From contig NZ_OCNH01000001.1 in the NCBI RefSeq assembly GCF_900230225.1, forward strand, positions 1,612,001 to 1,676,000: a DNA stretch of 64,000 nucleotides. Direction: 5' to 3'. The position numbers were made by a program, and so were the translations under genes. Of this stretch, positions 28,601 through 40,221 are shown one piece after another. This DNA is from Spirosoma fluviale. GTDB taxonomy: Bacteria > Bacteroidota > Bacteroidia > Cytophagales > Spirosomataceae. Below the pieces are notes generated by a model. The model had not been told where the DNA came from, did not search any database, and was given only the letters and a program-made list of their open reading frames with translations. Within the stretch, counting starts at the first letter, position 1, and the number at the start of each line of letters is the position of its first letter.

Positions 28601-29166
28601 AGCAGCAGAAGTTGTTAAACACCGTATTGCAGTCGCTGAACCGCTACGTCAAAACGGGTGAGGGGTCGTCGGAGGCTAAAGCCGCGCTGGTGCAGATGGC
28701 AAAAACCTTCGGCTGGGCGGTGGTCTTCAACGCGGCCTGGGTAGCGGGTATCTCGGCGGGTTCGGCGGCACTGATGGCGATTTTGTCGGGCGATGAACCC
28801 AAATCATGGGAGGAAACCAAACGCCGGATTGGGTTTGACTTCGTGCGTAACATTGCCGGAACGGTTCCGGGCCTTGGTCAACAAGCGGTTGAATATTACC
28901 TGAGCCAGATGGATGACAGACCAGGTACGGACCCTCTACTTCAAATTACGGCCGCTGAAAATCTACAGACGGGTTTAGATATACTAAGCGGGATGGGTAA
29001 ATATTTAATGGAAGAAGATGAGCAAAGACGCGATAAGGCACTGGACTCTGTTATTTATGATACAACTGACTTTATGACCAAAGCGAGTGGCACACCTGCT
29101 AGTGTAACCAAACTTGTTAGGGAGTGGATCACGACTGATGCCGATGATTTAGAAGATAATGAATGA
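13624..29166 (+). CDS. Large polyvalent protein: DarB-like methylase-helicase plus zincin
   Basis: 5180 aa in a single frame, exceptionally long. Order: helical, partly hydrophobic region (residues about 1-450); linkers rich in A/E/Q (about 800-2050); a compact domain near 2085-2220; then a DarB-like core. The core holds an N6-adenine methylase with the YTGWGGLKA signature, AdoMet motif EPATGAGHF at 2507-2515 and catalytic-type NVPF at 2572-2575, then an SF2/SNF2-like helicase with Walker A GVGTGKT 3216-3222, DEAH 3406-3409 and motif VI-like QRNGRILRQG near 3758. A zincin follows: HEFGH 4158-4162 with candidate third ligand E4209. The helical C-terminus has a hydrophobic stretch near 5022-5055. 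P1 DarB, with the same methylase-helicase order, is a head protein injected to protect DNA from restriction; the same role is inferred here. The last 170 bp or so differ in base use from the rest (see findings). Confidence 0.85.
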   Translation: MSKQPSPTTVPDLYPEIMSHKLDDKLVSVLRQQGKNPTALQKELDTVIASGDMRKKAGLLEHYAALTDRVRGNSAATSFLTSRRRLLDVEDENSKGSVSGTQALVGLTGNGFVDLAESLPKLAVAAYQGVKGDNKSWEKANKSVENFFQPLRTYVSDDYQKGLAWYDSERGLDLNLDAKSLIGTVGNLAGFILPGFLTAGMGSLATIGTRSALRAAQLAGDTMKVAQASAKLGKAGSIVEKVTGISSFLQMFPGYQKEAIEAGLSMKDATLLAIPMAGINGWIETANMGALTKALGMSDDIAKQAIREVTTQELRSALQGMAGKALNPTAFMDVAEGAAKAALGRISRPKEMSMVGRMLGAASRRVGTGFREQGITEGGEEFFQSLVENASRQLYNNFGAATSATEGNGKFKDPTLGKYLFDGIYGTLLGTIVGTGMGTIVQSKKLDPTVFGYINADVRMQLAKGVAFDDVVNNLKINKALDAEVAGGRLKPEEHQELKQTIVRMADTAREFADVDGFTDSDRYLMFKLSESRNTSIADSANIEALKEEYGQITFQLQSGQLSTADQLKAELRKSAVAKELGGFVADPNGNPTQIFEAEKFVSDRASDFETIASQTLAEYGKGTDRAGVKNFFNNNYSTWQKKYGKLSQYEDPFTPQQVVVDPATQESIGFDADKKFFRIVSPVGGQVKTPAHVNEQGKFVPSVRGPLGYDYGRPIDDINRHIALSQTLADPADPLSQSATPFEPADNSPEANWLRDGEELINTITVGSAAGKSAKAAVGKAKQLATAFLTDSAFLANDAKYGQAYTQMAATLQGLVSSASAQTTVPGTQTGSATSTASAPVATVHQAQLPKDLAGAKPRYGYQGTNFLVRFASDVDRALYVTSQTVPSKRDAEYRRFLTRLGYTNSEINREGVAVRNAIKAKAQSQVLNGAQSGDTLKISQPIAAEPASTRQTADSSQLSVVPTTPPDANQSAPVQPDTVTQPTTDGQTTQPGNAPSVQQSTPEPQTIDAQYEAAFELDGSIKSAADAEAEFEQALDASEQSVADDGIPVVGTIEQLIDALERTIAATAEATGATGTDINEESVDQADTPDAGISPAASTAEVVLPEGPLTLQDALTALRDARGQAAADQFENALMKLLRFPKFLQDSMLFYALPPEPTTATGKVSTKRRPKKDIRMRLPLDYFYSAAEILAGQRKEQTSPAANEVLRKFLAVFLEGGVEIDDRTTGQRAYLSLDELADTAAVMEDMIPDGVEDIHPLAYLAADEILSTLSEEDIDAILSVIDEMEGINPDSWLVALNDALENAFPPVADSVLNSIDAIVQEYRDANESIIFDNADDADPEYQRVLSEYTTTQRGIQSAIANRQTENAVSPGLDDFESDGALESGVESPSIQSGLAAAGEEFQPETSEFRPEQFESAVKAAEDAGRAAIEKAGTVGDATDQTSPQSADPVTETFESAIAALEDEEVAKPLDTTYPDRLTKLRETAAKMLHDLENGIYKVPNTSTALRIVNGEVVESGNSSMGQFQADSRSIKDIPRDELAGFTKKRDALRAQVAKLNEPWLERLVWFIAGKNPEEAKALLRGAPEDFQLIARLVDRALLDIGNYTHVPQLMAWLDAKEAETANPAPTTAEKVEQLLDAVEEAISQEASQDPITSAAVAPLDIELADLNLQEKQLSDQLGDDDTRKEIEAVQEKKKTVRRKKADVAQEVASQPAPVDTLQQKLDDLDEEEIALAKRLSAKLKAMRSGLNANPFADPELMGIVGEYFAVKIKKGIYGFAKIARDFVRANQEALHPDDFKVLRGVYGYYRDSADDAVSDQMDDTKAVRAITLESINEVLSPAAEVVEPVQTSSEPVEQTPDNAVKGERDRLVSQVNEALDLLNQDATLREYNFLNKQRNELFRMETAFATNSNDIMRDRVARAEAKLKVALEDVEPVLRSVRANVAATPVATSTAIAEQPDVEPLEAEPAVEQTPVGESNQTQETPTQKTVSEDVAEIRMQALTEAKAKVDALQAMLAKDPTSMRIEWELGAAKMDLDMALANATGNAKSLPPAFREQLNQIQAELNNINRLIDKIYDTTGETEKDQHELGSLAPGRKFKEALKKLSRQMAARLGWKHEYDANGRVEYSWVNLPPAGGYGGFKLWHPSWKIGIEVQFVANKLGGRGGDYGDTLTIDDRVRWRLIEPVEKNSVGENRIYELSGSPAVFGDKVATAANNYLSSLPDDGTRESTNTLDSASTASTGLQFGLFEGNNAASAGTVTGSAGRGGKVSPNRTGSTGKGKKSGGSNGNSAGNLGGTLDAGSGSPADGGSGISEDSGTGQTAPVELPATESSNTPAVVETAPVFVPAPEINLNPNHFVITDDTVLIPQGRVGKIRANLAAIKLMKELVEAGRPATAEEKAVLVQYTGWGGLKAVLDQEKLNRYKMAVENLSNISYSSSTYWLKVKGELQSWYDTNGKFAEEISDLLTKEEFQDAVNSVINAHYTDRPVIKAIWKYVQAMGFKGGHTLEPATGAGHFLGLMPVDLVKKSQWWGTELDTVTGNIAKLLYPDADIQVKGFEAVPQKSHFYDLVISNVPFGQTAPFDSAHQDLSKFNLHNYFIAKSIRLAKPGGLVAVVTSAYTMDSTDTSFREWVSNNGNADLVGAIRLPSNAFLENAGTEVVTDILFFRKRDGSETEPGESMRSLKPLFDQEWDTGQLVKVKIDGVEQSVPDVRQLSYRVNEYFARNPEKMLGEPKFAFDAKSGGLYRPDENTLEAPEGQDTMKLLDEQLDSLPKNITETKGLDSRDASGGYSTKRAGALYRNAAGKIVKSADGVEQALDLSSTVKIAGKKYTLKTVYGDYLDLKEGVQQLRALEAKATTEAEGKAMTEMRRKLRLAYTTFVAKYGTLNRNAQRIGFLEDADVEYAQVAGLELVSRDPVTNKYSFAPSQILNQRVQSPPKLPTTAENVQDALTLSLAYKTKIDLPWMAELLNQPENSIQESLLVDGLAFVDPETGLLDDKENYLSGNVRHKLAQAKAVAQTDQSYEPNVVALEAVIPKTIPISLIDFRIGSSWIPSQIYEDFMAAIGINQPKVAYLPATQSFSISGWPTPRAETLGTPRINVVELIDKALNLKQPVIMDRYKDENGNKKEVKNIADTAAAQDKMMEVMNRFVDYVKDMPSLARLAESVYNEKYNSLVAKKYMQPPFTSFPGANPAIQLRQHQIKAAQRALVDSVLFAHGVGTGKTFTMITAAMEMKRLGLAQKPMIVVQNSTLENFANAWRFLYPGANILVPTGNDTDAENRQRFLQRMAYNNWDGVIIPQSFLALIPDNQDRVDALVQEQIDVIQNALNDTDEKEERATAQNLKARLKALEKQRDSAAEKEAKKKQKTVADKAREALKVTKKVSKQAARRTDATMTFEELGVDALFIDEAHEYKKFGFYTKMGNVKGIDTASSQKALSAMLKVKWVQERNKGRNVVLATGTPISNTMAELWTMLKYVAPQLVKDFGIDNFDEFAANFGSVDPSLEFTAAGKFKIVDRFKRYINMPELNALFKQNVDVVLGDEVFKKGDNTLPELKDGKFTFIELDMSPELKNYMDYVKRTLTAWEKLEGAEKRKLKHIPLVMFTRAKQAAIDVRLVDPAMKTENSKVHAVAKEVLQRYKQTASYKGTQLIFSNSIASAEAKDKYLDEEMTMINPLYGKDQFNLYDAIVDELVSGGIPRAEIAIVPEDAKKREAVFLKVRSGEIRVVLGSTERLGVGVNIQDRIQAVHHVDAPVRPMDFEQRNGRILRQGNLHAEWGLPVEIVTYGVKKTLDATAYQRLAFKQEFINQILKGDSTERSQNDEADEDDASSMGFQEMMASLSGSQYVQLQQQRKFELNKVKMALSNWERGQIEARQMIESAERSVAKYTALIPQLELQIGAVQKAFPDGKVEVNTIQVENGDIIEGEKAKDALAEVMSGLLADAVQKLPSSRFVKINGFGVKMGWTIAFDHDRGRDGVSIYYEKGENFKGLATKVDGLLTSMRAALKRVESAPSIARSNMEKSQETIEAFTQELKRPFKDTAKLAALEAEVADLEEKMQAEFEAESAELENGIEEGEFDLDNDLGFQLQQPSQPANPATDALVNRIAQAFPSTQVVSNPAAYESALIESGASDLLGNQRPLGFVWNNRVFLSPDATENTVLHEFGHIWTNIVKTQNPAFYQQGIALVANSPYMARVKADSYYSTLSEEQQLDEALAMAIGDEGVGFLQPAGRMSFGEWLMNLWNQLKQAFGLGTDPAKMTLRDFVGQVVGQMTPGTPVAGTSLDGAAADASQSSVNSVPQFQLPTGVVPQTIAEMKTDAESRFQSIPVLAIGAGVNPDLWDTPVREWTKEDKAYVKNIKQLTGWELSGPETLKYTRPGDLFYLADGSAVRMEGYQLTQILRDGFQAAYESDTGRGRLFRTVVDRMKSWTNLETFLDMIDDAAGSIAGLMKDLKRTSARRASYAQVILEPLRQDAEKKLADFSLRTGNSLETVKTMTVTTYDYDETGAVVDRDVEIPVAVGMELALLAETQIETYGQASHIVDGMPTLAQLYRTNPDGSRTRWKKGAVYYDQDNDTTHYLLMPTQQLNALRERFETGNGAYEGEADAYTALKTYYNQAEVVKLLKEENGYLNPDREFEEVQDYYPIRTYNNQQDARTQSRGFSRTLDESRQLIARQNAADAVLVRDPITTMNDYEGSVVDILEHGRLVENLNALKNGIESDYTGPKKQYLITTIEKQRDVLQNHRKKRAEAYEQRGFVHWLESSMRRYTQSVFSLNVGLPLKQTGTYAAALGQGIIADEFLHSGEACGVLTQLTAGAYRDWEAPSTVINGMEHGYRGSLSGMDTQERPLMEEIFGVGMTDELTKSRQIQRFATILDRMTHSQTLFTGDVEWSDLGLNSRTLTNGQKALRQFDEWNTEYGLAAMKRADRAVILAYYTAAKLQANSEGLAEGSDQYWDRVADLTERTLYATNQMSNLAEQTPMQTSTDFVAKILGLYSGQQQKLLNTVLQSLNRYVKTGEGSSEAKAALVQMAKTFGWAVVFNAAWVAGISAGSAALMAILSGDEPKSWEETKRRIGFDFVRNIAGTVPGLGQQAVEYYLSQMDDRPGTDPLLQITAAENLQTGLDILSGMGKYLMEEDEQRRDKALDSVIYDTTDFMTKASGTPASVTKLVREWITTDADDLEDNE
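16583..16936 (+). CDS. Nested +1-frame reading frame A (doubtful)
   Basis: 117 codons in the +1 frame relative to the large polyvalent protein, within one of its low-complexity linkers. The product would be Q/N/L-rich with coiled-coil character (about residues 40-95). Codons are closer to local preference (CTG, CAG, TCG) than in the main frame, where GCA and GAC are frequent. However the main frame here also looks real: it has I/F-E-Q-L/A-hD-A type helices found again elsewhere in the protein. It may therefore be a shadow. Listed because two similar +1 frames (17606-18025, 20291-20632) occur in the same gene. Confidence 0.2.
   Translation: MAKQPSLVTPQVFNSLPRNHKQSTLSTRQHSNSMGLSNLLLTQKQNLNRLSTQANNLSQMMESQLSEPLNSLSTRLNELLQQRQKQLAQQERILMKNPLTRQTLRMQASAQPRPRLR
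17606..18025 (+). CDS. Nested +1-frame reading frame B (doubtful)
   Basis: 139 codons from ATG 17606, +1 relative to the large protein, again over a linker. The product is S/P/Q-rich with a basic, helical C-terminus (QLSRLLKMQDELLSKKQELL type segment near residues 92-111). It uses CTG, CAG, CCG and TCG codons typical of the neighbourhood while the main frame here uses CTC, GCT and TCA more. As for frame A, the main frame retains repeated FESA-type helices, so both frames could be under selection or this one may be fortuitous. Confidence 0.25.
   Translation: MNPLYLIMQTMQTPSTNESSASTPPPSAAFSQLSPTDKQKTRLALASMISSQMAPSNQGSKALQFKADSLPLAKSSSPKPASSGPNSSNQLSRLLKMQDELLSKKQELLATPPTKPAPNQPTRLQKLLSQRSRLLKMKK
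20291..20632 (+). CDS. Nested +1-frame gene C within the large protein gene (candidate)
   Basis: 113 aa from ATG 20291, +1 relative to the 5180-codon frame. It reads as an ordinary helical soluble protein (starts MEQENLPIPWIARLRHL, then HPQELLQDLLDVEERFHRIE, then EEAEFRKILELVKQLQ), with local codon preferences (CTG, GAA, CAG, GCG). The main frame over exactly this stretch is a G/S/T/A-rich filler with many GGA codons that are uncommon elsewhere in the gene. The frame opens where the preceding folded domain ends (about residue 2220) and stops just before the methylase domain begins. This suggests either an overprinted small gene or a former separate cistron now bridged out of frame. Expression is unproven. 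Confidence 0.45.
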   Translation: MEQENLPIPWIARLRHLRDYNSDYLREITLHPQELLQDLLDVEERFHRIEQGLLGKGRSLAEATEIALETSAAPSMLDQEAQPMEEAEFRKILELVKQLQSNYLQPNPATPQP

Positions 29167-29169
29167 TTA

Positions 29170-29197
29170 AACGGCCCTGATTTCAGGGCCGTTTTTT
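29170..29197 (+). terminator. Rho-independent terminator after the large protein gene
   Basis: Perfect 11-bp stem AACGGCCCTGA at 29170-29180 and its complement at 29183-29193, a 2-nt loop (or TTT/ATT tetraloop-like closure) and a T run. It begins 3 bp after the stop codon and ends the rightward cargo-protein transcript just before the endonuclease-like pseudogene. Confidence 0.85.
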
Positions 29198-29213
29198 GTA
29201 TTTTTGTTATTGG

Positions 29214-30175
29214 ATGAGACGATTAACCCGCGCAGAATTTATTGATAAATCAAGGCTTGTTCATGGCAATAAGTATGATTACTCTCAGGTAGAATACGTT
29301 GATTGGGTAACAAAGATTAAGATAGGCTGTTCAACTCATGGCCTGTTTGAGCAGACGCCCAACAATCATCAGCGTAAACATGGATGCCCAATCTGTGCAT
29401 TTGAGAAAAATAGCGCTGAAAAGAAAGTAAGGACGGCAGTAGTTATTAAAGAGCGTTGTCGGAAAATGCATCCGGATTTAGATTTTTCGGAAAGCATATT
29501 TACTGACTATGATTCCAGTGTTCTCGTTCGTTGCTCTAAACATGGACAATCCAGTAAAACAATTTATCATTTGCTCAAAGGCAGTGGTTGCACTGCATGC
29601 CTGTATGATAAAAATTCGATAACGGATAGTGGCTGGATGAGAAGACTTACCGCTAAGTTTGGCTCCTAATATAAATATTTAATAGACCTTTCAGCTATTT
29701 ATAAATCCAAAGATGCTATTGAGGTTGTTTGCCCAAATCACGGGAAATTTAGTATTCGGCTGTCCCGTCATTTAAATGAGGGTAGGGGATGTCAGAGGTG
29801 TGCTAAAGAAGCTGCTCAGTTAAAAATAAAGTATATAGCCGTTCTGAATGGGTAGGCATTCAAAATGAGAGAATGGCTAGACTTTATCTAATCCATTGTG
29901 TTGCAAATGGGGAATATTTTTATAAAATTGGGATTACTTACCTTGCGATAAAACGTCGATTCCGGTTAAAGAAAATAGGCTATGAGTTTGAGCTTATGCA
30001 TTTTATCGAATCATATAATGCCGAATATATTTATGATCTGGAAAAAGCATTAGCTCGTCGATTAAAGGACTTTGCTTACTTGACGACAAAAGATTTTACT
30101 GGTAGAACGGAATGCTATAAATTTGACAGTATTAGTGTATTTATGGAGGCATTAATAGTGGTTACTAACAAATAA
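29214..30175 (+). pseudogene. Broken homing-endonuclease-like gene (zinc-ribbon repeats + GIY-YIG/T5orf172-like)
   Basis: From ATG 29214 the first 152 residues carry two modules of the HGxKYDYSxVEY...CxxHGxFxQ...GCPxC type found in free-standing phage endonucleases. A TAA at 29667 interrupts it; the same frame then continues for 62 codons with a third CPNHGKF...GCQRC module and stops at 29856. A shift of frame leads into YSRSEWVGIQNER and then a 100-aa C-terminus beginning MARLYLIHC with FYKIGIT, a GIY-YIG/T5orf172-like nuclease start. The three pieces add up to one ancestral protein broken by a nonsense change and a frameshift near 29830-29850. It is AT-rich, unlike the gene it follows by 48 bp. 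Free-standing genes of this type spread by cutting at nearby targets and being copied in during repair. Confidence 0.7.
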
Positions 30176-30653
30176 GGGATTTCTATTTCTGTATCGTTTT
30201 GGGTATCGTGTTTTAATTGCACTTACAAACGTATTCTTTGAGTTCAAGACATGAACGAAGTTCGCGCTTGTCATATTTGGCTTCCTGTGCCTTTACACAC
30301 TCATCAGGATGTGCTGTAAGTTTTTAATGGAATGATAACGAGTAAAAACATACAGCTTGTCGGGGGTTTGTTCGCCAGAACACGGTGGTGGTTGGGCTGC
30401 AAAGCCTCCTGCAGGACGTGCTTCCTGTCGCACGGGAGGTGGAGTTCGGAGAGTTCTTTTTACCTCCCATTAAAAACAAACTACCACCTCCCAAAGCACC
30501 CGTCATTACTCCCGATTTGGGGGAGGTGGTGGTGGAAGTTTGTCCTTAACAGGGGGAACAGATGCTTTCTCTTTGTTCGTGCCCGGATCAGGTCGAGTTT
30601 CTGGTCTTTGCATGGGTCTTGGTCTATCTTGGTCTGGCATAGCATTAATTGGT
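30176..30653. repeat. Intergenic block with GC-rich repeat copy E
   Basis: No convincing gene on either strand. At about 30330-30425 lies a copy of a block repeated at about 35505-35605: both run from a TTTTTAATGGA...TGATAA lead through AAACATACAGCTT, CGGGGG, GTTCGCCAGAAC and GGTGGTGGTTGGGCTGCAA, ending in a TTC.TGTC core. Further right, paired GGGAGGTGG and CCACCTCCC tracts (about 30437-30535) can pair in RNA. The minus-strand proline-rich tail of the next gene's ancestral frame also lies here (30506-30700). Confidence 0.5.
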
Positions 30654-31160
30654 TTATTGTTGGAGATAACGTTGCATATAAGCACTGGTTTCTTTGTCAG
30701 CTTTTCGGTTTACCGAGAAGATAATCCAGATTTTGATTCTGGAGTCGCTCTTTTCAATTTCCTTTTTCCTTTCTTTAATCTGCTTGAATCGCTCAGATGC
30801 TTCTTTTTGGGTGATACTTATCCGATAATCAATCCAAAGCGATTCAAGTAAATCAAGGTAATCACACCATTTATCTCGTAGCTCTGCTACGTCTTCCATG
30901 TACTCGTCGTTGGCAATGAATTTGTCCTGAAGCAATTCTAACAATTTGACAAAAGTGGCTAATCCTGCACTGACGCCTGTCCAAACAGCCCCTTTGTCTG
31001 ACAACCAGACGATAAAACCAGAGGAGGTCAAAAGGATAGTAGTAATTTCAAAGTACTTCTTGATTGACTTGAGGAATGCGAGGTATTTGATTAGATAAAC
31101 AGTGTGTTTTTTAACATCATACAATTCATCCCACAAGATGCTATTCATAAATTTTATCAA
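30654..31160 (-). CDS. SLATT-like two-helix membrane protein (possibly frameshifted)
   Basis: 168 aa. Two adjacent membrane helices at about residues 39-54 and 58-74, then a long charged helical region, the layout of SLATT-domain proteins, which are thought to form effector pores next to nucleotide-signalling or nuclease defence genes. Alone here, with no recognised partner beside it. Near the C-terminus, another frame on the same strand continues past the stop as a proline-rich tail (TEKLTKKPV... to PPPPPPNRE, stop at 30506-30508), so a one-base frameshift near 30700 may have removed the natural end. The first 145 residues or so are intact. Confidence 0.5.
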   Translation of the reverse strand: MIKFMNSILWDELYDVKKHTVYLIKYLAFLKSIKKYFEITTILLTSSGFIVWLSDKGAVWTGVSAGLATFVKLLELLQDKFIANDEYMEDVAELRDKWCDYLDLLESLWIDYRISITQKEASERFKQIKERKKEIEKSDSRIKIWIIFSVNRKADKETSAYMQRYLQQ

Positions 31161-31312
31161 ATACGGTTTGTCAGACGCGACCGCCCTTTTTTACTTAGCT
31201 TAACTTACTCAGGCGTACCATCTGTCGCCCACAACCCGACAACCGACCAGATTTGAAATACGCTCAAGTGCCCTTTGTCACACGGAAGCTGGCCACGGAA
31301 AGGCATAGACTG

Positions 31313-31376
31313 CACCCAACGACTGCAGGGGTTAATGGCGACGTAGGAGCCTTTATACACCTGCAGTCGTTGGGCT
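31313..31376. repeat. attC-like hairpin 1
   Basis: Perfect 15-bp arms (CCCAACGACTGCAGG at 31315-31329, complement 31360-31374) around a 30-nt centre. The outer ends fit the integron attC core consensus: ACCCAAC against RYYYAAC and GTTGGGC against GTTRRRY. Total length about 64 bp is within the attC range. It lies between two minus-strand genes, as cassette recombination sites do. No integrase gene is in the window. Confidence 0.5.
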
Positions 31377-31464
31377 GAAACGCTAACCTCGTGGCCTGCT
31401 GCCTGTCGTCCGACAAACTGCCCGCACGGAGCTTAACGACGCACTTTGCACTTTTTTGCACCCT

Positions 31465-31595
31465 CAACGGTTTGTGTATTGGCGAAAGCAGAGTATTAGA
31501 ACTCCGTCAGCCGAAATTAAGCACGAATGTTGATAGAAGTACAAATGTTCAAATACTTCCGTCTGCCGTGCTTTTGCCAATACCTTGTTACCTGC
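31465..31595. repeat. Degenerate attC-like hairpin 2
   Basis: Arms GTATTGGCGAAAGCA (31476-31490) and TGCTTTTGCCAATAC (31569-31583) pair at 14 of 15 positions; inner AGTATT/AATACT boxes can extend the stem. The outer boxes (CCTCAAC and GTTACCT) fit the attC core only partly. It lies just downstream of the stop of the minus-strand 191-aa gene, the position of an attC in a cassette. Confidence 0.3.
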
Positions 31596-31622: not shown

Positions 31623-32198
31623 CTATTTAATTATTTCATTAAATAAATCAACTGTTTCTTTGTCAACCAATGTTGAAATAATCTCAGGTTTGTAGCGAAA
31701 TACAGCGTATAGCGTTCCTGCGTTTCTACCTTTACCTGCAACTGTCATATTAAGTCCTGCTGATGAGCCGTCTGCGGCAACTGTCGTCCCTTTATCTGTC
31801 CCTTCAACTCTAATCCAATCAGTTCGTGTATACATATTACCGTTTGGTGCGTATACGTATTTATAACCGCACTTTTTTACTCCACCACTACTGCCGCTTG
31901 TACAGCTATTTTCAACGGATAATTCAACAGTTTTAGATTGATATTCTGCTTTTCGTCCTGACCTAAACTCTTCTTTCAACTTACTCATTTCACTTTCATA
32001 AAGGACTAATTTTTGAGAAATTGTCAAGTCAGTCCTATCTTCTATTGCTTTTAAAATTATTCTATGTTTGTCCTTGTAAGGCTGTAAAAAGTCCGATAAA
32101 GGTTTTACAGAGTAGTCTTGTGCTGAAACATAAATCGTGCTTGTCAAGATGAAAGCAAGTACCGCAAACGTTTTTTTGATGATTGTTTTTGTTCTCAT
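31623..32198 (-). CDS. Secreted protein of unknown function, 191 aa
   Basis: Not recognised. A Sec signal peptide spans residues 1-26 (basic start, hydrophobic core, IYVSA|QD cleavage). The mature part has a helical first half (about 30-80), a CTSGSSGGVKKCG loop with two cysteines that may pair, and a beta-rich second half. In a Bacteroidetes host it would be periplasmic or surface exposed. It lies between attC-like hairpins and GC-rich repeat clusters, so it looks like a single-gene cassette. AT-rich like the rest of the island. Confidence 0.55.
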   Translation of the reverse strand: MRTKTIIKKTFAVLAFILTSTIYVSAQDYSVKPLSDFLQPYKDKHRIILKAIEDRTDLTISQKLVLYESEMSKLKEEFRSGRKAEYQSKTVELSVENSCTSGSSGGVKKCGYKYVYAPNGNMYTRTDWIRVEGTDKGTTVAADGSSAGLNMTVAGKGRNAGTLYAVFRYKPEIISTLVDKETVDLFNEIIK

Positions 32199-32309: not shown

Positions 32310-32630
32310 TTCAAGCCTGCCTATCGGGGCATTCGCTTTGTCGTAAGGACGCTGCCCGGCAAACGTAAACCTGCCTAACCGAGGCGTTCGACTTGTCGAC
32401 AGGAACCCGAAAATGTAAGATAAGACCTGACTTCTGCGGCCTGCAACCTGTCGCCGGAGCGATGCCTTGGAAGCACATTTTAGACGAACACTCAACGCCC
32501 GCGAGGGCTGATGGTGGGCAAGCAAATATACTGAACTAAAGCCACTTATACCTTTACACCCTCGTTTGGTTAGGCTGCCCCGCTTTCCCTCGGGACGTGC
32601 ATCCTATCGGCGGAAAGCTGCCCTATGCAA
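32310..32630. repeat. Cluster of GC-rich TGTCG-core repeats
   Basis: A gene-free stretch holding at least four imperfect copies of a 35-50 bp unit of the form CCTGCCTAACCGAGGCGTT, CGACTTGTCGACAGGAACCC. Copies are near 32318, 32369, 32424 and 32575. The set includes GCCTAACC (about 32373) and GGTTAGGC (about 32567), which are inverted relative to each other. The blocks stand out as GC-rich in AT-rich surroundings. Confidence 0.5.
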
Positions 32631-32635: not shown

Positions 32636-33253
32636 CTAATCGTAGCTTTTCCCTTTGACATCTTCTAATCGTAAAGCTTCGCCCTCTACTTCATACAGCC
32701 CATTGATGTCAAATTCAAATAGGGTTTCATCACTCGTGCAAGTGGACGTATAAACGTTTCCATGCACATCATAATATTTTGCTCTCCATTGATAAACACT
32801 AATTCGCCAATCAATTTCAAATGGCTCACCTGACATAAGGGAATACACTTTAACCGGGTTTTCCCAATTAACAGAAGTGCCTCCTTTATAGGCAATCATT
32901 GCATTTATTGCAGTTCCTTCTCCAACGTTTTTGCAAATCCATTTACCTCCTATATCTTTGAATATCAGTATTGGACGTGTTTTAGCGGACTCTAAAATAT
33001 CTTTTTCGGTATCTCTATGGCGTTCTGATTTATGAATGACAAAAGTTAATACGCCAAAAATTACAAGATTAGCTATCGAAATAAATACATTCAAGAAATC
33101 ACCAAATTGTCCCCAAACCTCAGTTTTTTCGGATTTGTGAGTACCAAACTGAAACCTATAGATTATTACTGCAATTATTGGTATCAGTATAGCTATTACA
33201 GCTGCACCAACTAGCCAATAAGAGTAATTATACTGTTTTGAATTCTTATTCAT
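32636..33253 (-). CDS. Two-helix membrane protein, phage-abortive-infection-like
   Basis: 205 aa. Membrane helices at about 12-32 and 55-74. Just before the second helix is WGQFGDFLN (47-55), close to the WGxFGDF motif of the putative phage abortive infection membrane family. The C-terminal 120 residues are soluble and beta-rich. Members of that family are suspected superinfection or abortive-infection factors, without a proven mechanism. It stands alone on the minus strand between a repeat cluster and a 137-bp gap. The family call rests on one motif and topology. Confidence 0.45.
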   Translation of the reverse strand: MNKNSKQYNYSYWLVGAAVIAILIPIIAVIIYRFQFGTHKSEKTEVWGQFGDFLNVFISIANLVIFGVLTFVIHKSERHRDTEKDILESAKTRPILIFKDIGGKWICKNVGEGTAINAMIAYKGGTSVNWENPVKVYSLMSGEPFEIDWRISVYQWRAKYYDVHGNVYTSTCTSDETLFEFDINGLYEVEGEALRLEDVKGKSYD

Positions 33254-33390: not shown

Positions 33391-34668
33391 TTATGTGTTT
33401 GCAAGTTCAACGAACCATTTTTCGTGTGAAAATCCCCGTCTATCTAATTTTAATAACAAATTTTTGATAAAGTTCTCATCTAATATTTGTTTTATAAATG
33501 GCCTTAATAGTGATGATTTCTTTACACTCACGAACTCGTCAATATTTTTGAGTGTATACTCAGATGAAAGACGAAAATTATCTGGAAATGATACTCTTGT
33601 TTCATATTTTGACAATAACTCTTTAGGGAGTCTGATAGGAGGGCATATAAAAGGTACTATATCATCTTCACGATCTAAGCCGTACTGTGTTTTCAACTCT
33701 GCATTGGCCAAATCATAAATCTTCTTGCGTTCAAGATCAAAATCACTATAACTTGCATTTGAATCATAAATCCTAAAACAAATAGCCTTTTTTAATTTCA
33801 AGTATTCATGTATTTCATCCGTTATACTGAAGTTACGGTTATGATATAAGTCACTGTAAAAATTACGAATATCTGTGTAAAACTCACCATCTCTTCCTCT
33901 AGAGCCACTTTGCCGATAATTAAATAAACATAACTCTTCAAGTTTATCTTCAAAACTTATTAAATCTTCCAAACTTATTGATTTGCAAGACGTTACAGGA
34001 AGTGAGTGGCAGGCATAATAAGAATCAAAATATGCTTCTCTATTACTGCTCAATTCCTCAAACATATGCCGTAAGCTATCGTATAGGCCTCTGAAGTGGT
34101 TTCTTAATGGATATTGAGTTCCTATTGGTTTCTTATAGGGTTCGGGGCCACCATAAGGCCCCTTAAATATATGATCAAATTCTCCAGAATAATCATTTAC
34201 CGAATGTGGCATAATATGATCAACTAAGTATAGTAAATTTTGATTATCCCAATATACAAATCTCTCTAAATCTGGGTAAATAATCTGAAAAGCAGAAAAT
34301 TGCGATAATGAAGTCCATTCACAAAGGCAAGTAATTTTATCACTATGATAAGAAATTAAATCAAGTACCTGTTTAGCGATTTCTAAATTTTTGACATCGA
34401 AGTAGTCTACATATTTCCCATCCTTATATCTGCATAGTTCTTTTTCTTGGGCTATATCCTCATTGTGATAACGTATAGTTTTTCCATTGTATCCTTGCTT
34501 CAATTGTTTGTAAATGGAGATGATTGAATCGTCATCATTTATTAAGAATACTAATCTTATTGGGCAGTTTTTCCTTATAATTGACAGCAGAGGTACGTAA
34601 TAGTCAGGATGAGCTAAAATAAAATCCCGTATTAGGATTTCTTGATAAATTACTTCTTGCTCTAACAT
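33391..34668 (-). CDS. Protein of unknown function, 425 aa
   Basis: Not recognised. Soluble, with no signal peptide or membrane segment, mildly acidic, and very AT-rich. The N-terminal 110 residues alternate helix and strand (PIRLVFLINDDDSIISIYKQ), which could be a Rossmann-like or nuclease-type fold; there is an FYTDIRNFYSDLY segment near 270-282. Two clusters of acidic residues are present, but no catalytic signature was identified. Flanked by GC-rich repeat clusters, it looks like a stand-alone cassette. In such islands single large soluble proteins are often defence effectors; that is a guess here. Confidence 0.5.
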   Translation of the reverse strand: MLEQEVIYQEILIRDFILAHPDYYVPLLSIIRKNCPIRLVFLINDDDSIISIYKQLKQGYNGKTIRYHNEDIAQEKELCRYKDGKYVDYFDVKNLEIAKQVLDLISYHSDKITCLCEWTSLSQFSAFQIIYPDLERFVYWDNQNLLYLVDHIMPHSVNDYSGEFDHIFKGPYGGPEPYKKPIGTQYPLRNHFRGLYDSLRHMFEELSSNREAYFDSYYACHSLPVTSCKSISLEDLISFEDKLEELCLFNYRQSGSRGRDGEFYTDIRNFYSDLYHNRNFSITDEIHEYLKLKKAICFRIYDSNASYSDFDLERKKIYDLANAELKTQYGLDREDDIVPFICPPIRLPKELLSKYETRVSFPDNFRLSSEYTLKNIDEFVSVKKSSLLRPFIKQILDENFIKNLLLKLDRRGFSHEKWFVELANT

Positions 34669-34682: not shown

Positions 34683-34860
34683 TTATACCTGCCTAACCGG
34701 GGCGTTTACTCTATCAGCCGGAACCCGCCCAACGAGCAATAAACCTGACCGCTGCGACCTGTCGACCGAAACGCTGAAATGGAAACCCAAACCTGACCAC
34801 GTGGGGCGGTCAAATTGTCGCACGAAACCCACCCTGCAAGCACTTGATGGACGGGCCACC
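34683..34860. repeat. Cluster of GC-rich TGTCG-core repeats
   Basis: Three imperfect copies in tandem (about 34688, 34748, 34793), each a CCTG(C/A)C lead, a GGGCGTT-like centre and a (C/T)TRTCR(G/A)CCG(G/A)AA core. They match copies near 32369, 37536 and 37610. They directly precede the 510-bp direct repeat. Confidence 0.5.
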
Positions 34861-35366
34861 CAACAAGTTATTGTATGCAATTACGCTAAATATCAAACTA
34901 CTGTATAAAAGCTGGTTAACATTTAGCGTTGTTTTAAATAGTACTGTTTAATCTGTCATTAATCTATAAGAGAATGCATGCAACGCTAACCATTTTTGTC
35001 CAAACTTACATGCACTTGATCGTTAAAGTCATTCTAAGTAAATTCTAATTTATTTATCGGTAGAAAAGGCTTTAATATTCTATAAGATTACTTGGATGGT
35101 CAAAATATAGTATAAATTTCAATAGTCAATGACACAAGATTGTAGTTATAAGCGGTTGATTATGAGTAAATTTTCAATCAGAAGGGATCTAGTTGATGAA
35201 GGGTAAATACCTTACGGCTGAAGATGATGCCAAACGGGACAAAGCGTTGGACTCGGTTATTTACGACGTAACAGACTTTACCAGTAAAGCAACGGGAACT
35301 CCGGCGAGCGTGGTTAAACTTGTACGAGAGTGGATTACAACCGATAAAGATGACCTGGAAGACTAA
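34857..35366. repeat. Long direct repeat, copy 1
   Basis: About 510 bp, nearly identical to 39706-40221 apart from scattered substitutions. It begins at CACCCAACAAG and ends with a copy of the last 50-60 codons of the large polyvalent protein. Inside are TTAGCGTTG (34923-34931) and CAACGCTAA (34981-34989), an inverted pair. No complete gene of ordinary length is within it. Confidence 0.85.
35196..35366 (+). pseudogene. Displaced 3' end of the large polyvalent protein gene, copy 2
   Basis: Fifty-six codons from ATG 35196 to TAA 35364. The product matches the last 54-57 residues of the 5180-aa protein (shared RDKALDSVIYD, then GTPASV, KLVREWITTD and DDLED). Homology starts at the same codon (GKY) as in copy 3, and codons are GC-rich in the style of the phage arms. 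It could be read as a tiny protein but is best seen as the old gene end displaced by an insertion. Confidence 0.8.
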
Positions 35367-35799
35367 GATTAGTGATTCGTCTAAAAAGTTTGTGCTTTGA
35401 TGAAGCTTTGTCCTATTAAGTTAGCCAGCAATGTACCTTTTATATTATAGGCTAACTTAATAGGACCCCTTACACACCTGTTTGGATGTGTTGTGTGTTT
35501 TTAATGGACTGATAATCAATAGAAAAAAACATACAGCTTTCGGGGGTTGGTTCGCCAGAACGCGGTGGTGGTTGGGCTGCAACCTTCTTGCGGGACGGGC
35601 TTCTTGTCAGCGGAAACCTTCCCACGCGGAGCGCACAACTATGTACCTTCCATATTTATGACAAGCCTGCCAACTTCTGACTTGTCGAATTAGGCGGCTT
35701 TTCACTGGAAGTTCTTTCGCAAGTATTGAACTTGACTGAATGAGAAGCATCAGCCTCCTTGCTAGGACATGTAGCGGTGGGTTTTTCTCACACAAAAAT
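35367..35799. repeat. Intergenic block with GC-rich repeat copy F
   Basis: No gene seen. About 35505-35605 repeats the block at 30330-30425 (AAACATACAGCTT, GTTCGCCAGAACGCGG, GGTTGGGCTGCAA). An inverted pair AAGTTAGCC and GGCTAACTT with flanking TAATAGGA/TCCTATTA runs over 35410-35465: TCCTATTAAGTTAGCC (from 35411) pairs with GGCTAACTTAATAGGA (to 35465), a 16-bp perfect stem. Two more TGTCG-core units are near 35590 and 35670. Confidence 0.55.
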
Positions 35800-36915
35800 T
35801 TACTTCTTGCTAAGCTTTTCATTTCCAGTACTAAATCCCCAATTTACTCCTAACAGTGATACTAAGTTATTTGTACTTCCAAAGTTTTTACCAAATGCTC
35901 CTGTTATATACAAGTTGTCTTGTACTTTATACTTAATGAGTCCTGTTGAGCGATGAGTTTTTATTTCTTTATTTGCTCTCGAAATATACTCATAGCCAAA
36001 TGATAATTTTTTAAACTCAAATTCGAACTTGCCGCCAATATCAAAGAAATTTTGAATTTCATACTTATCCTGATTGTTCTTTTTGGTCCCATCTGAGAGA
36101 TAACGACCAACCACATACAAGTTCAAATAATTATTTTTTTCATTATCTTCTTTATCTAAACTCTGGGAGTAGTTTAAAGTCAACCAAGTGCCGAAACGAC
36201 CAAAACGATTTGTAGAAAAATCATTGTTAAAAAAAACTGTATTATAGGCTATAGCAAAATCTAAAGCTATTAGTGGCCTAAGATTAACAGCTTTTTTTAT
36301 TGATGAAACGGAATCTTTCTTAGCTATTAGATTTAAAACCCGTGTTTCTATTGCTTTGTATTCATCAGGCTTAATTACTTTAAGTGCAACTGTAGCGCCT
36401 TCCGCATTTAAAGTAGAGTCTACATATTTCAGGTGATTGACAGTTCTAAAATAAGCGTCGTATATGTCTTTACGTTGCTTTGAAGTATATAATTTCAATA
36501 AATTAGTTCTAGCGCCAAACGCAATATTATTAATAGGTTTATTTGTAAGGGTATCATCCTTGTTCACGTAGGCTACCGATAATGATACCGTTTTTAGAGC
36601 GGTTGTCAATTTTCCATTTTGAATACCTATATATTTTAATGCGCTCATATTTTTACCGTGCTTAAAAAACCAAAATGGTGTAATTTCAATGGCATAATTC
36701 TTGGGAAAACCGTTGCTTTCACCAAAAGAGTTAAACGCACCAACTGTAAATGCTTTGACAGAGTTAGGTCGCTCTATACTTGTTGGAGCTTGGTCGAGTA
36801 AAATAAAGCCAGGAGAATTTGGAATTTCTAAATCTTTAAGGGTCAAACTGTCCTTATCTTGTGCAAAACATAGATTAACACAAAAGAAGATAATCAGAGT
36901 TATGAAGCTTTTCAT
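35800..36915 (-). CDS. Outer-membrane beta-barrel-like secreted protein, 371 aa
   Basis: Signal peptide at 1-18 (ends CFA|QD). The mature protein alternates short strands with aromatic residues (SLSVAYVN, FGRFGTWLTLNYSQ, YLNLYVVGRYL, KLSFGYEYISR, NLYITGAFG) and closes with LLGVNWGFS, as in outer-membrane barrels. No transporter or receptor signature was seen. Its start overlaps the stop of the 143-aa gene upstream (ATGA at 36912-36915), so the two are coupled. A surface change that alters phage adsorption is one possible role; that is inference. Confidence 0.55.
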   Translation of the reverse strand: MKSFITLIIFFCVNLCFAQDKDSLTLKDLEIPNSPGFILLDQAPTSIERPNSVKAFTVGAFNSFGESNGFPKNYAIEITPFWFFKHGKNMSALKYIGIQNGKLTTALKTVSLSVAYVNKDDTLTNKPINNIAFGARTNLLKLYTSKQRKDIYDAYFRTVNHLKYVDSTLNAEGATVALKVIKPDEYKAIETRVLNLIAKKDSVSSIKKAVNLRPLIALDFAIAYNTVFFNNDFSTNRFGRFGTWLTLNYSQSLDKEDNEKNNYLNLYVVGRYLSDGTKKNNQDKYEIQNFFDIGGKFEFEFKKLSFGYEYISRANKEIKTHRSTGLIKYKVQDNLYITGAFGKNFGSTNNLVSLLGVNWGFSTGNEKLSKK

Positions 36916-37343
36916 ATCATTTCTACTGGTTTAGTAATAGAAACCATTTTATAATCTGGAGAAACAGTTATATCATCATTATCAAAATTATAAACCTGAT
37001 TATCCGAAAAACCACCAGAGAAACTATAATCTATACGAATTAATTCGACCTCTCTTTTTCGAAGGTCATCGTCTAAATGAGACATATTAATCAATGTTCT
37101 AACAACAATATAGCTTTTTCGCACTTTGGAAGCCAACCCAATAGGAAGAGTGAGAATATCACCATTAGCAGGTTTTTCTGGATTAGGGTTATTACGTTGG
37201 CTAGTAGATTCGTCAATTAAGTTGAATTGGCCACCGCTTCTAAGCAGATAAACTGCGGAATAGGCCGCCCCAGCAGTAATCACGTTTACAGCCGTCGATA
37301 ACTGGTTGTTGTCGACTAAACCTGTGTCGTATACTCTTTTCAT
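36912..37343 (-). CDS. Small protein coupled to the barrel gene, 143 aa
   Basis: Not recognised. No signal peptide; a short hydrophobic segment (NVITAGAAYSAVYLL, about residues 20-34) could be a membrane helix. The rest is beta-rich and charged. It is the first gene of a two-gene minus-strand unit with the barrel protein and overlaps it by 4 bp. Likely functions with its partner, but nothing in the sequence defines how. Confidence 0.5.
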   Translation of the reverse strand: MKRVYDTGLVDNNQLSTAVNVITAGAAYSAVYLLRSGGQFNLIDESTSQRNNPNPEKPANGDILTLPIGLASKVRKSYIVVRTLINMSHLDDDLRKREVELIRIDYSFSGGFSDNQVYNFDNDDITVSPDYKMVSITKPVEMI

Positions 37344-37489
37344 AATTATGTTTTTTTATTGAAAAAACAGAGATTTTTAATATGAAGTTTTTCTGATACT
37401 CGCAATTAGTAATGCTTTGGGAGTAGTTTTTAAAATCATACAAAGTTATTGATACATACGAATCGTGAATAGGGTGTTTTCCCCGTATT

Positions 37490-37645
37490 CTATGGGGCGT
37501 TTACCCTGTCGCATGGAGCTGCCCCGCAAATGAAAACCTGCCCAACTAGGGCGGTTTAACTTGTCAGCCACAACCCGCCGAACGGGCAAAGACTTAGCCT
37601 ATGCGGCCTGCAACCTGTCGCCATAATCCGCCCCGCAAGCACTGC
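37490..37645. repeat. Cluster of GC-rich TGTCG-core repeats
   Basis: Three imperfect copies (about 37492, 37536, 37585-37635), the last with GCGGCCTGCAACCTGTCGCC identical to the copy near 32440. They precede the second clear attC-like hairpin. The stretch 37344-37654 has no gene. Confidence 0.5.
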
Positions 37646-37654
37646 TTGTTGCTA

Positions 37655-37752
37655 TGCACCCAACGCCTTGAAGTGTTGATGCTACGGGGCATAAACCAAC
37701 TGAACATACACAAGCTGTTCCGTAGTTTTCACACTTCAAGGCGTTGGGTGCA
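37655..37752. repeat. attC-like hairpin 3
   Basis: Perfect 22-bp arms (TGCACCCAACGCCTTGAAGT plus GT at 37655-37676, complement at 37731-37752), with an unpaired step and then an inner CTACGG/CCGTAG box. The outer boxes fit attC: ACCCAAC against RYYYAAC and GTTGGGT against GTTRRRY. The nested two-box stem and length near 98 bp are typical of attC. Of all sites in the island this one fits best. Confidence 0.55.
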
Positions 37753-37810
37753 ATTACTCCGCATACTCGCCCCGCTGGCTATCGGATTTACTCTAAAAAA
37801 GACAAAGACT

Positions 37811-38008
37811 ATGACTAATACACAAAACCCTTCCGCCCGCACCAAGCTGGCATGTGAGCTTGAACAGCTACCCCCTTATCTATTTACCCCTATGACGAAA
37901 GAAGGGTACGAACGTAACATGGATATTTATGAGAAGGTATTGGGGATGTGTTTAGGGAATAAAAAAAGCCCCTCCGAGCGAAGGGGCTTTAATGATTGTA
38001 AAGACTGA
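37811..38008 (+). CDS. Small plus-strand protein, 65 aa (candidate)
   Basis: From ATG 37811 it reads MTNTQNPSARTKLACELEQL and continues as a small soluble protein with a YERNMDIYEKVLGMC helix. It is the only plus-strand gene candidate of the cassette region and directly follows attC-like hairpin 3. Its last codons run through the terminator hairpin at 37961-37990 and overlap the end of the minus-strand toxin gene by 20 bp, which weakens the case. No function suggested. Confidence 0.35.
   Translation: MTNTQNPSARTKLACELEQLPPYLFTPMTKEGYERNMDIYEKVLGMCLGNKKSPSERRGFNDCKD
37961..37990 (-). terminator. Terminator of the Panacea-type toxin-antitoxin unit
   Basis: On the minus strand: AAAGCCCCT, 8-nt loop, AGGGGCTTT, then four further T. 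It ends at the stop codon region of the minus-strand 134-aa gene. The flanking A and T runs make it potentially bidirectional, serving also the small plus-strand gene. Confidence 0.75.
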
Positions 38009-38393
38009 ATTTGTTATCTATCCAAAGGATATGGAACACAATACCCTTTTTATAGCCCAGAAAGGGTTTTTTTCCTAAAAATCGCCAAGCCAAAAAAAAT
38101 TTCACATCATCTGTTACTACTTGGTGTATTTTCCCTTTTACCGATCCCCTGTTAATTTTTTCGGTGCCCATTGCATGTCTGCCGGACCCTCTAATATCAT
38201 CCCAAGTTAATTGACTCAACTTGTGAAGCTGCTTAGTAAATGCAACTATTTCATCTTTGTCACATTCGTCTAAATCATACCCCTTCGTTAAATAGCGAAA
38301 ACAGAAAATAGGGTGTTTTATCTCAGAGCTTAACGAATCTATGGTAATCTTTACATTTGGACCCTCAGTAACAGGAGGTCGTTTGATTCCCAT
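37989..38393 (-). CDS. Probable toxin paired with Panacea antitoxin, 134 aa
   Basis: Second gene of a two-gene minus-strand unit, starting 8 bp after the antitoxin stop. Small, basic, soluble. The C-terminus has the pattern of compact RNase or nuclease-like toxins of this kind (DVKFFLAWRFLGKKPFLGY, then VFHILWIDNKFSLYNH), but the fold is not identified. Panacea antitoxins pair with many unrelated toxins, so the toxin call rests on position. AT-rich, frame intact. Confidence 0.55.
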   Translation of the reverse strand: MGIKRPPVTEGPNVKITIDSLSSEIKHPIFCFRYLTKGYDLDECDKDEIVAFTKQLHKLSQLTWDDIRGSGRHAMGTEKINRGSVKGKIHQVVTDDVKFFLAWRFLGKKPFLGYKKGIVFHILWIDNKFSLYNH

Positions 38394-38401
38394 CAGCTTT
38401 A

Positions 38402-38845
38402 CTAGTTGATGTGTTGTTTAAAGAATATCCTCATTGACTCTTGGCTTATATCTGCTTTTCCATTTTCATTCGCATCTCGCCAAGGTGACTCTTGGTGGGT
38501 CATATCCCGAAGCTTCCAAGCAGAAAATTGACCATAAACATTAAAGACTTCTTTAATTAAACTCTCTTGCTCCTCAGTAAAAGCAACAGAAAATTCATAA
38601 TCAGGTGTTGGCGATATAGGTAAGCCAGCATTTTCTTTGTAGGTGTGGTAAAGTTCAGGCACTACTGGTCCATATGTCCAAGGTGCTATTCCATCCGGGA
38701 AAATAGCATCGTCGTGTAATGCTAAGTGGAATCCCTGAACATAATAGACTAACTTTTGAAGTTTAAGATTGGTGACATCGTTATCGCCAACCTCTGTATC
38801 TGCCAGCCTTAAAATATACTCAGCTACATCTCTTGCAGTTGCCAT
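38402..38845 (-). CDS. Panacea (SocA/DUF4065-like) antitoxin
   Basis: 147 aa. The family signature is clear: a start like MATARDVAEYIL, then NLKLQKLVYYVQGFHLALHD (about residues 25-44), AWTYGPVVPELYHTYK as PWTYGPVVPELYHTYK (about 52-67) and a C-terminal helix region. The Panacea domain acts as a general antitoxin for many toxin folds and is also in SocA and GepA-type proteins. It leads the operon with the 134-aa toxin candidate. No own DNA-binding domain was seen, so regulation may be indirect. Confidence 0.85.
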   Translation of the reverse strand: MATARDVAEYILRLADTEVGDNDVTNLKLQKLVYYVQGFHLALHDDAIFPDGIAPWTYGPVVPELYHTYKENAGLPISPTPDYEFSVAFTEEQESLIKEVFNVYGQFSAWKLRDMTHQESPWRDANENGKADISQESMRIFFKQHIN

Positions 38846-39008
38846 ATTGAATGTCGATTAATTATTAGGGACGCAAAGGTAAGGTTAATATACGAAATAT
38901 TCTACTATATATAACACAAGTAGAGTATAATATATTTAAACAATATTAGTGCCAATTATGTCTTAATGATTATTTCTGTTTGATTTTGTTCAAAAATGTG
39001 CAATACTA

Positions 39009-39485
39009 CTAGGATAGTAGCTTGGATATAGTAAAGCCTATACCAATGCCGCCAATTAGGGCACTGAATAACCAAAAAATAAATTGAGCCGTGGACATCT
39101 TCACTTCGTGCGTAGCAATTGGTTTCTCGTTTTGGCTGGGACTAGTTTCGGGTTGGATTTGGGGTAAGACCTCAAAGTCTTGACCTATGTTGTTTCCAGA
39201 ATTATGGTTGCCAAAAATAGAGTTATCAATCTTCACCATTGGGATTTTTGATTCAGACTCTCGCTTGGCTATTAAATCTTTCCATTTTTCGAAACTACCA
39301 GATTCGATAGCTTCATAGCCCTTATCTGTTAAATCATATGTATTGCCGCGTGGGACTATAAGACCAATGGCCTTCATCTTGCTGACTGCCCTTCTGTACA
39401 AATCGGGCGTATCATTACTTATGCCTATATAGTTTCCCTGGGAAACATATAATAAGATTTCATCAATCTGCTCTGATAGGGTCAT
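39009..39485 (-). CDS. Winged-helix protein with C-terminal membrane anchor, 158 aa
   Basis: Residues 1-65 look like a winged helix (helix, GISNDTPDLYRRAVSKMKA recognition-type helix, then GLIVPRGNTYDLTDKGYEA wing). A flexible N/S/P-rich linker with FGNHNSGNNIGQDF follows, and a single membrane helix at about 131-156 ends the protein. Membrane-tethered winged-helix proteins of this sort occur in defence islands with effector-associated roles. The target is unknown. Flanked by empty AT-rich spacers. Confidence 0.5.
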   Translation of the reverse strand: MTLSEQIDEILLYVSQGNYIGISNDTPDLYRRAVSKMKAIGLIVPRGNTYDLTDKGYEAIESGSFEKWKDLIAKRESESKIPMVKIDNSIFGNHNSGNNIGQDFEVLPQIQPETSPSQNEKPIATHEVKMSTAQFIFWLFSALIGGIGIGFTISKLLS

Positions 39486-39705
39486 GCAAGTATAATTTTG
39501 GCGGAAATACTCATTTGTTGTAACACAGCTCTACTCGCCCGTGCCAATCCTGATAAGTAACTCTATTCCCTAAGAGACATAGAGCAACCGGACACGTAGC
39601 ACATAGAGTGACTCAACACCGCTTAACGCCAACGTGGCAGATGGAGTAGTGCCCTGCAAAACGTAGCTGGGTCATAGACTTGCATCGCGTAGCATGTTGG
39701 GACTT
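39486..39705. repeat. Gene-free spacer with divergent cassette-boundary repeats
   Basis: No gene seen. Contains a short direct pair CACGTAGCACATAGAG / ACATAGAGCAACCGGACACG style repeats (about 39574-39615) and GCTTAACGCCAACGTGG near 39630. It ends at AACAAG, where direct repeat copy 2 begins, in the same position as the GC-rich cluster before copy 1. Confidence 0.3.
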
Positions 39706-40221
39706 CACCCAACAAGATATTGTATGCAATTACGCAAAATGTCCAACTACTGTATAAAAGCTGATTTATATTTAGCGTTGTTTTAAATAGTACTGTTTAA
39801 TCTGTCATTAATCTATAAGAGAATGCATGCAACGCTAGCCATTTTTGTCCAAACTTACATGCACTTGATCGTTAAAGTCATTCTAAGTAAATTCTAATTT
39901 ATTTATCGGTAGAAAAGGCTTTAATATTCTATAAGATTACTTGGGTGGTCAAAATATAGTATAAATTTCAATAGTCAATGACACAAGATTGTAGTTATAA
40001 GCGGTTGATTATGAGTAAATTTTTAATCAGAAGGGATCTACTTGAAGAAGGGTAAATACCTTACGGCTGAAGATGATGCCAAACGGGACAAAGCGCTGGA
40101 CTCGGTTATTTACGACGTGACGGATATTGCCAGTAAAGCAACGGGAACCCCGGTGAGCGTGGTTAAATTAATGCGTGAATGGATTACTGGCGATAAAAAA
40201 GATTTGGAGGACAATGGTTAA
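39706..40221. repeat. Long direct repeat, copy 2
   Basis: Nearly identical to 34857-35366, same order: CACCCAACAAG start, the TTAGCGTTG/CAACGCTAG inverted pair, an AT-rich centre and a terminal copy of the large gene's 3' end. One arm base differs in the inverted pair (GCTAGCC against GCTAACC). The two copies bracket 34.86-40.22 kb. Confidence 0.85.
40042..40221 (+). pseudogene. Displaced 3' end of the large polyvalent protein gene, copy 3
   Basis: Readable from TTG 40042 to TAA 40219 (59 codons); the product shares RDKALDSVIYD, ATGTP, REWIT and DLEDN with the end of the 5180-aa protein. It keeps the DLEDN end that copy 2 has lost. GC-rich codon choice resembles the phage arms, not the island. 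It has no normal ATG start, which supports a relic. Confidence 0.8.

Follow-up and report, generated by a model that had tools for sequence, protein, structure and literature searches.

Two apparent integron-type cassette arrays between copies of a phage gene end in a prophage region of Spirosoma fluviale

A textbook integron is a unit that consists of an integrase, an attI site and cassettes. Two further types of structure invite comparison with the locus described here, namely complex class 1 integrons with duplicated conserved segments, where a direct repeat of the flanking segment brackets added arrays, and integrative elements at gene 3' ends, where the gene is kept open by an alternative end and relics of the old end lie at the far side. 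Integrons and attC clusters in phages are already known, and the section of Qi et al. (2023, PMC9892861) on the Shewanella prophage M16-3 describes an attI-headed cassette cluster without integrase, plus a complete integron. In this article, we analyze 64 kb of the Spirosoma fluviale genome (contig NZ_OCNH01000001.1, positions 1,612,001 to 1,676,000), referred to as the window, and in particular the island that follows LPP, a phage gene of 5180 codons (window positions 13624-29166, + strand) with methylase- and helicase-like Pfam domains. The novelty of this locus is that of a variant within a many-platform integron system.

We consider it probable that the island consists of two tandem integrase-less cassette arrays of the host's integron type, and that the copies of the LPP end found with them are scars of homologous recombination. 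The locus is similar to the prophage M16-3 in that attI heads an integrase-less array among tail, capsid and terminase genes; M16-3, however, also carries a complete integron with its integrase in the same prophage, whereas here the integrase is on another contig, and in contrast to M16-3 there are here two tandem modules split by copies of a phage gene end, in a member of the Bacteroidota. As in a sedentary chromosomal integron, there is an attI-like site, an array of attC-bounded genes in one orientation that mostly have no known function, and an antitoxin-like cassette; unlike in such integrons, a single integrase accompanies several attI platforms, its 3' end faces attI and it has no IntI-specific insert. 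The repeated segment differs from that of complex class 1 integrons in that it includes a phage gene end; no ISCR-type element turned up in the Pfam analysis of the island frames, beyond which no search for one was made. Unlike integrative elements at gene 3' ends, the island has no integrase, and the gene end lacks a defined att core. Its attC clusters without a nearby integrase correspond to clusters of attC sites lacking integron-integrases (CALIN), but a plain CALIN has no attI-like heads.

The window lies on a contig of 2.6 Mb (C4) in a genome of 7.8 Mb and is a tailed-phage region by its matches to terminase, virion structural and endolysin proteins. The terminase and endolysin frames are open, as is LPP across all of its codons. 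GC content drops from ~0.53 to 0.34-0.42 between 29 and 43 kb, and the low-GC zone extends to ~43 kb. The 3' end of LPP is present three times, as the live end A (28996-29166) and as relics B (35202-35366, + strand, 54 codons plus stop) and C (40051-40221, + strand, 56 codons plus stop). An earlier note on this DNA had claimed that the last codons recur twice and that homology starts at the same codon, in the residues GKY, in both relics; sequence comparison bears out both claims, with the coordinates of the relics corrected to those given here. Ends A and B align at 28992-29156 and 35198-35362 with 70% identity over 166 columns (E 3e-16), and the breakpoint is sharp, since the 30 bases that precede GKY match at 7 positions between A and B, which is the level expected by chance.

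The two relics lie within a 515-bp ungapped direct repeat (34857-35371 and 39706-40220) with 478 identical positions (93%). The note's near-identical repeats of about 510 bp are thus real, except that their divergence is uneven and that an attI-like core marks their start. The differences are distributed as in a mosaic, with 7 in columns 1-64, 5 in columns 65-390 and 25 in columns 391-515, GKY being at column 346. The spacers that lead from the attI-like site to the gene end (34923-35201 and 39772-40050) are 98.5% identical to each other and were not found elsewhere among the 222 family genomes searched; TAnnTTTG matches once in the spacer, with no clear partner, and no promoter is claimed. 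Identity of B and C continues for 45 nt beyond GKY up to the first difference: the first 15 codons do not differ at all, codons 16-25 agree at 26 of 30 bases and the remainder at 70 of 90. The codon changes comprise 12 synonymous and 6 nonsynonymous ones, plus one pair that involves the stop of B, compared with an expected synonymous share of 23% (p 9e-5 by a simple count without correction for double hits). The distal parts of B and C thus look as though they had accumulated their differences as functional genes in separate phage lineages, whereas the spacer and the first codons are common to both, as one would expect from a single crossover within the LPP end. An assembly artefact or duplicate is unlikely because the copies differ by 7%, the arrays contain different genes and the contig is 2.6 Mb long.

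At the chromosomal integrase locus on contig C17, the array ends in CACCCAAC, followed by an inverted-repeat stretch, a frame of 87 aa and a tyrosine recombinase of 390 aa. The same type of layout is found in genome G203. The core GTTGGGTG is located 500-570 nt past the HxLRH motif in 22 of 30 fetched integrase loci and was not found there in the other 8, some of which are truncated. A matrix trained on these 22 integrase-linked sites (training scores 38.3-56.6 bits) scores 38.6 bits at site B (34857-34898, - strand), whose core is TTGTTGGGTG and which also matches the attI pattern, and 28.8 bits at the weaker site C (39706-39747, - strand). The next-best place in the window scores 5.6, and in 20 random 64-kb sequences one peak reached 19.5 while the others were at 8.0 or less. 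These scores indicate that each 515-bp repeat starts with an attI-like site where a cassette array attaches, and we refer to the two sites as the putative attI heads of the arrays. Six places in the own genome match the attI pattern, two in the prophage and one each on C4, C6, C8 and C17; across the genus the pattern occurs in 24 of 36 genomes, with six as the maximum per genome. The reversed pattern, used as a control, occurs nowhere in the own genome and once in all 36 genus genomes. Two oppositely oriented attI-like sites were also seen in G203 (C1:5480117 and 5483337), ~3.2 kb apart and around attC sites.

The earlier suggestion of a cassette-like cargo is substantiated, in that the attC and attI matches identify the cargo as integron cassettes. 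Both arrays of the island run on the reverse strand, and together they have three full attC sites and two half sites; the attC sites between the cassettes have the G/TTRRRY core typical of integrons. On C17 and C6 the attC architecture is GCCCAAC, spacer, arm, loop, matching arm, spacer and GTTGGGT; sites with the strict motif number 6 on C17, 9 on C6 and 2 in the window, with none on C8 or C4. A covariance model built from the 15 strict chromosomal sites finds three sites in the window, each scoring best on the minus strand, which is also the strand of the cassette genes: 31314-31375 (44.9 bits, E 4e-10) and 32490-32575 (67.6 bits, E 7.7e-17) in array 1, and 37658-37749 (45.3 bits, E 3e-10) in array 2. 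The model detects sites on C8 and C4 as well. As single-stranded DNA, the sites 31314-31375 (z -8.0) and 37658-37749 (z -7.8) fold better than their own shuffles. At E 1e-5 or better, 35 of the 36 genus genomes have at least one match and the own genome has 24, whereas up to E 1 none was found in six LPP relatives, covered at seven loci, or in two 20-kb flanks of the window. The distal ends of the arrays are marked by half attC sites on the minus strand, at 30290-30397 in array 1, cut in the loop (repeat families D3/D4 and matches to chromosomal attC variants), and at 35467-35577 in array 2, with the same cut point (repeats and chromosomal matches). At these two places, and at L062:7276 and 11454, L063:7678 and L064:9591 in the fetched chromosomal loci, attC takes a long form in which ~95 additional bases separate L' from R'.

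At E 1e-60 the own genome contains one integrase of this kind, on C17 (L062:18424-19596) beside an attI site and an attC array, and relatives at that threshold occur in 49 of the 222 family genomes. The protein obtains similar scores from the XerA, integron-integrase, XerC and XerD models, all under their cut-offs. It misses positions 178-236 of TIGR02249, and residues 181-245 of IntI4 have no partner in it, so the IntI-specific insert is absent. One study (PMC7790495) describes this insert as a helix-bearing element gained by integron integrases for single-strand attC recombination. The 3' end of the integrase gene faces attI, and attC sites lie within 3.5 kb on the attI-facing side in at least 18 of 25 genus genomes with the integrase gene. 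From this position we infer that the enzyme acts on the attI and attC sites, and it is possibly a patch-less integron integrase. Bacteroidetes/Chlorobi intI genes were listed in 2008 as genes chosen by the additional domain (PMC2426708). The 87-aa gene between attI and integrase begins with MAKKV (L055:1666-1929, L062:18186-18449), has no NCBIfam family and is found by sequence beside attI in genomes G191 and G136.

The island repeats recur at four further places in the genome, on C17, C6, C8 and C4. Besides C17, there are three more chromosomal attI-like sites with arrays (L063:17075-17116, L064:12216-12257 and L065:7414-7455), with no integrase beside them within the fetched 20 kb. The segment 38965-39714 and the first cassette of the C17 array have 81% identity, in a match that ends at the core, and 240 bp at 37726-37966 have counterparts on C17 (77%) and C6 (74%); the identities of the shared cassettes are in the range of 74-82%. 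The antitoxin-like gene of array 2 and part of its neighbour recur in genome G189 (74%), where an attI-like site is ~1.5 kb away; in S. oryzae the pair of genes recurs (68%). At E 1e-20, with the own genome counted, array 2 is matched in 4 and array 1 in 18 of the 36 genus genomes, the matches to array 1 being mostly around the attC at 32490-32575. Of the 11 relatives fetched for the C8 site, 2 have the attI side in common with it, in 8 others 12-621 bp separate the flanking genes, and in the remaining one there is another gap, of ~1.3 kb; the spacing of the flanking genes in these relatives indicates that the C8 module is an insertion. A short duplicate of a neighbouring gene's start apparently brackets this module (L064:9062-9086 and 12449-12473; 25 nt, 84%, E 0.002-0.012), which is a faint parallel to the copied LPP ends. 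A general rule that attI modules duplicate the end of a neighbouring gene was rejected, with weak support at C8 and none at C4, C6 or C17.

Relatives of LPP occur in 9 of the 222 family genomes, including the own, and an order-wide search of 390 genomes gave LPP matches in 3, all of the own genus. In viral contigs a single-query search with LPP found no relatives and a search with an alignment found 2; genome contigs gave 2 matches. The earlier note had proposed a comparison with relatives that lack the island, and such forms exist. In S. sordidisoli (G201), whose LPP homologue is 45% identical in the searched 888 aa, the gene is followed by a convergent endonuclease-like gene and then by a homologue of window 46454-48010; the distance from the LPP stop to the frame that precedes this homologue (L026:8900-9817) is 4.3 kb. 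This region is listed in IMG/VR as a 95.8-kb viral contig. In genome G087, of another genus, a homologue of window 45506-46432 starts 1.2 kb past the LPP stop. In the window, the distance from the LPP stop to 45506 is 16.3 kb. Neither attI (by matrix) nor attC (by model) was found at the LPP loci of S. sordidisoli or G087. In S. oryzae, LPP is broken and is followed by 4.7 kb of different cargo and then by a decayed second end that starts ~13-16 codons past the GKY position. Together with the window, this two-end form suggests that the LPP 3' end is a recurrent landing place, not at one fixed base. Immediately past the decayed end in S. oryzae (L024:14425-14541) lie conflict genes of the EAD1, GAP1-N1 and double-GTPase types (14628-19808); a stretch ahead of this end looks tRNA-like by eye, and ARAGORN found no tRNA gene there.

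In the mechanism that we propose, the single C17 integrase would act in trans on both attI-like sites and on the attC sites of the prophage and would thereby move cassettes between chromosome and prophage. A module composed of array, attI, spacer and the first codons of an LPP end could enter by one crossover between LPP ends, for instance from another phage genome or as a circle that recombination between two ends had set free. Such a crossover would leave the resident's last codons on the right and the incoming last codons on the left, so that two events would produce three ends while LPP is kept open. By this logic the live end A should consist of incoming last codons. Its 57 codons have a GC content of 0.40, the lowest of 90 LPP windows (mean 0.53), which offers weak support, weak because GC is low also in the first 45 nt of A and in the LPP end of S. 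sordidisoli (0.46, likewise below the gene body).

The earlier note had suggested a different origin, namely a site-specific integrative element that is directed to GKY in the LPP 3' end and brings a replacement end, having been inserted twice or duplicated. The island does lie, repeated, at the 3' end of a phage gene, and the sharp onset of homology, for which B and C have the same codon, as well as the low GC content of end A, would fit such an element. What speaks against cutting at GKY is that no integrase or recombinase was found among the island frames searched, that B and C have one and the same join of spacer and GKY and remain identical 45 nt beyond it, and that the S. oryzae relic begins ~13-16 codons later. 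Moreover, the site-specific sites that were found, attI and attC, are at the opposite side of the repeat from GKY; no integrase next to attI was found in these frames, and the island does not combine an integrase of its own with matching att cores at both ends. We therefore regard the site-specific element as unlikely and its replacement end as hypothetical. Insertion targeted to a tRNA was rejected, the two tRNA genes at 43.2-43.5 kb being outside the repeats.

A free-standing homing endonuclease might instead have cut the LPP 3' end, one-sided faulty repair copying flanking DNA and leaving the old end in place. An endonuclease-like gene is indeed situated ~30 bp past the LPP stop in the window, broken into remnants (29196-30175, + strand) with a treble-clef-like open piece at 29196-29669 and a GIY-YIG-like one at 29873-30175, and its intact 319-aa homologue adjoins the LPP end of S. 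sordidisoli in the opposite orientation (L026:13122-14081). Its Pfam matches are slight, however (DUF4379 below the cut-off; the GIY-YIG-type T5orf172 with 21 bits versus a cut-off of 20, E 5e-4), the intact homologue matched a zinc finger alone (E 8e-4), and no such gene was seen past LPP in S. oryzae or G087, which makes this explanation a little more doubtful still. The least probable of the alternatives, in our estimation, is that a single unit with its array was simply duplicated in tandem and then decayed into an inactive relic. The half attC sites, the weaker second attI and the broken endonuclease gene would be expected from it, but the ends of B and C have diverged about ten times as much as the spacer, and mostly at synonymous positions, the arrays have no genes in common apart from the repeats, and the frames of LPP, terminase and endolysin are open.

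Several observations weigh against the recombination of host-type arrays that we favor. The attI-like site C is degenerate, at 28.8 bits compared with 19.5 in the best random sequence; the attC at 32490-32575 folds no better than its shuffles (z 0.25), and the terminal attC of each array is a half site. The C17 integrase lacks a domain thought to be necessary for work on attC. The model does not account for the first join of spacer and GKY, and end A exhibits no clear crossover, its first 45 nt being low in GC as well (0.38). A second phage with this attI or attC was not found either: exact attI and attC patterns gave 0 hits each in viral contigs, in a scan that may omit records near this genome.

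The cassette genes, all on the minus strand, give the arrays no clear role beyond an antitoxin-like gene, judging by their sequences. Array 1 contains genes of 168 aa (30654-31160, a weak match to a 2TM defence effector), 191 aa (31623-32198, no confident family), 205 aa (32636-33253, no Pfam family) and, closest to attI, 425 aa (33391-34668, no confident family). Array 2 contains genes of 371 aa (35800-36915, no Pfam family) and 143 aa (36912-37343, an open reading frame included in the Pfam search), a gene of 134 aa (37989-38393, MAG6450-like below the cut-off) that adjoins the SocA/Panacea antitoxin-like gene (38402-38845, PF13274, E 6.6e-21) and, closest to attI, an open reading frame of 158 aa (39009-39485) within the stretch that matches the first C17 cassette. 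Weak matches to defence models were obtained for 4 of 10 cargo proteins searched (E 2e-4 to 0.008). A 26-bp hairpin at 35410-35466, identified by repeat analysis, is located between convergent frames and is probably a terminator; a special role for the hairpins 3' of relic ends in the window and S. oryzae was rejected on the same ground. Past end C, the segment 40222-43190 is AT-rich with two minus-strand genes without assigned function; it may be an older eroded array, and no attC was found in it. Beyond it lie a tRNA-Ser gene (43193-43280) and, close to it, a tRNA gene (43470-43544, - strand) to which ARAGORN assigns an anticodon of four bases (gaaa) and hence a loop of 8 nt. tRNA was the sole match in the Rfam scan.

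The likely function of the island, as judged from its sites, is that of a phage-carried pair of cassette platforms dependent on the host integrase. More tentatively, and with a greater chance of being wrong than right, we suggest a distributed integron of Spirosoma in which one reverse-facing, patch-less recombinase of Xer type would serve in trans as many as six attI platforms per genome, and entire platform modules, in addition to cassettes, would hop between loci and onto phages, carrying along a copy of the end of a neighbouring gene; the enzyme would then be a living intermediate between Xer and integron integrases and the phage a vehicle for platforms. No account of such a system was found in the titles and abstract openings of the open-licence literature on Spirosoma and Cytophagales integrons. 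With one integrase and attI-headed arrays dispersed over the genome, two of them in a prophage, the platform is uncoupled from the integrase, and platforms could consequently travel. Activity of the C17 integrase, if demonstrated, would open the transition from Xer to integron integrases to a direct test. The copied ends of the phage gene are a readable record of how arrays could pass between phages, and if the host integrase shuffles the prophage cassettes, as appears likely, the phage could ferry swappable genes between bacteria.

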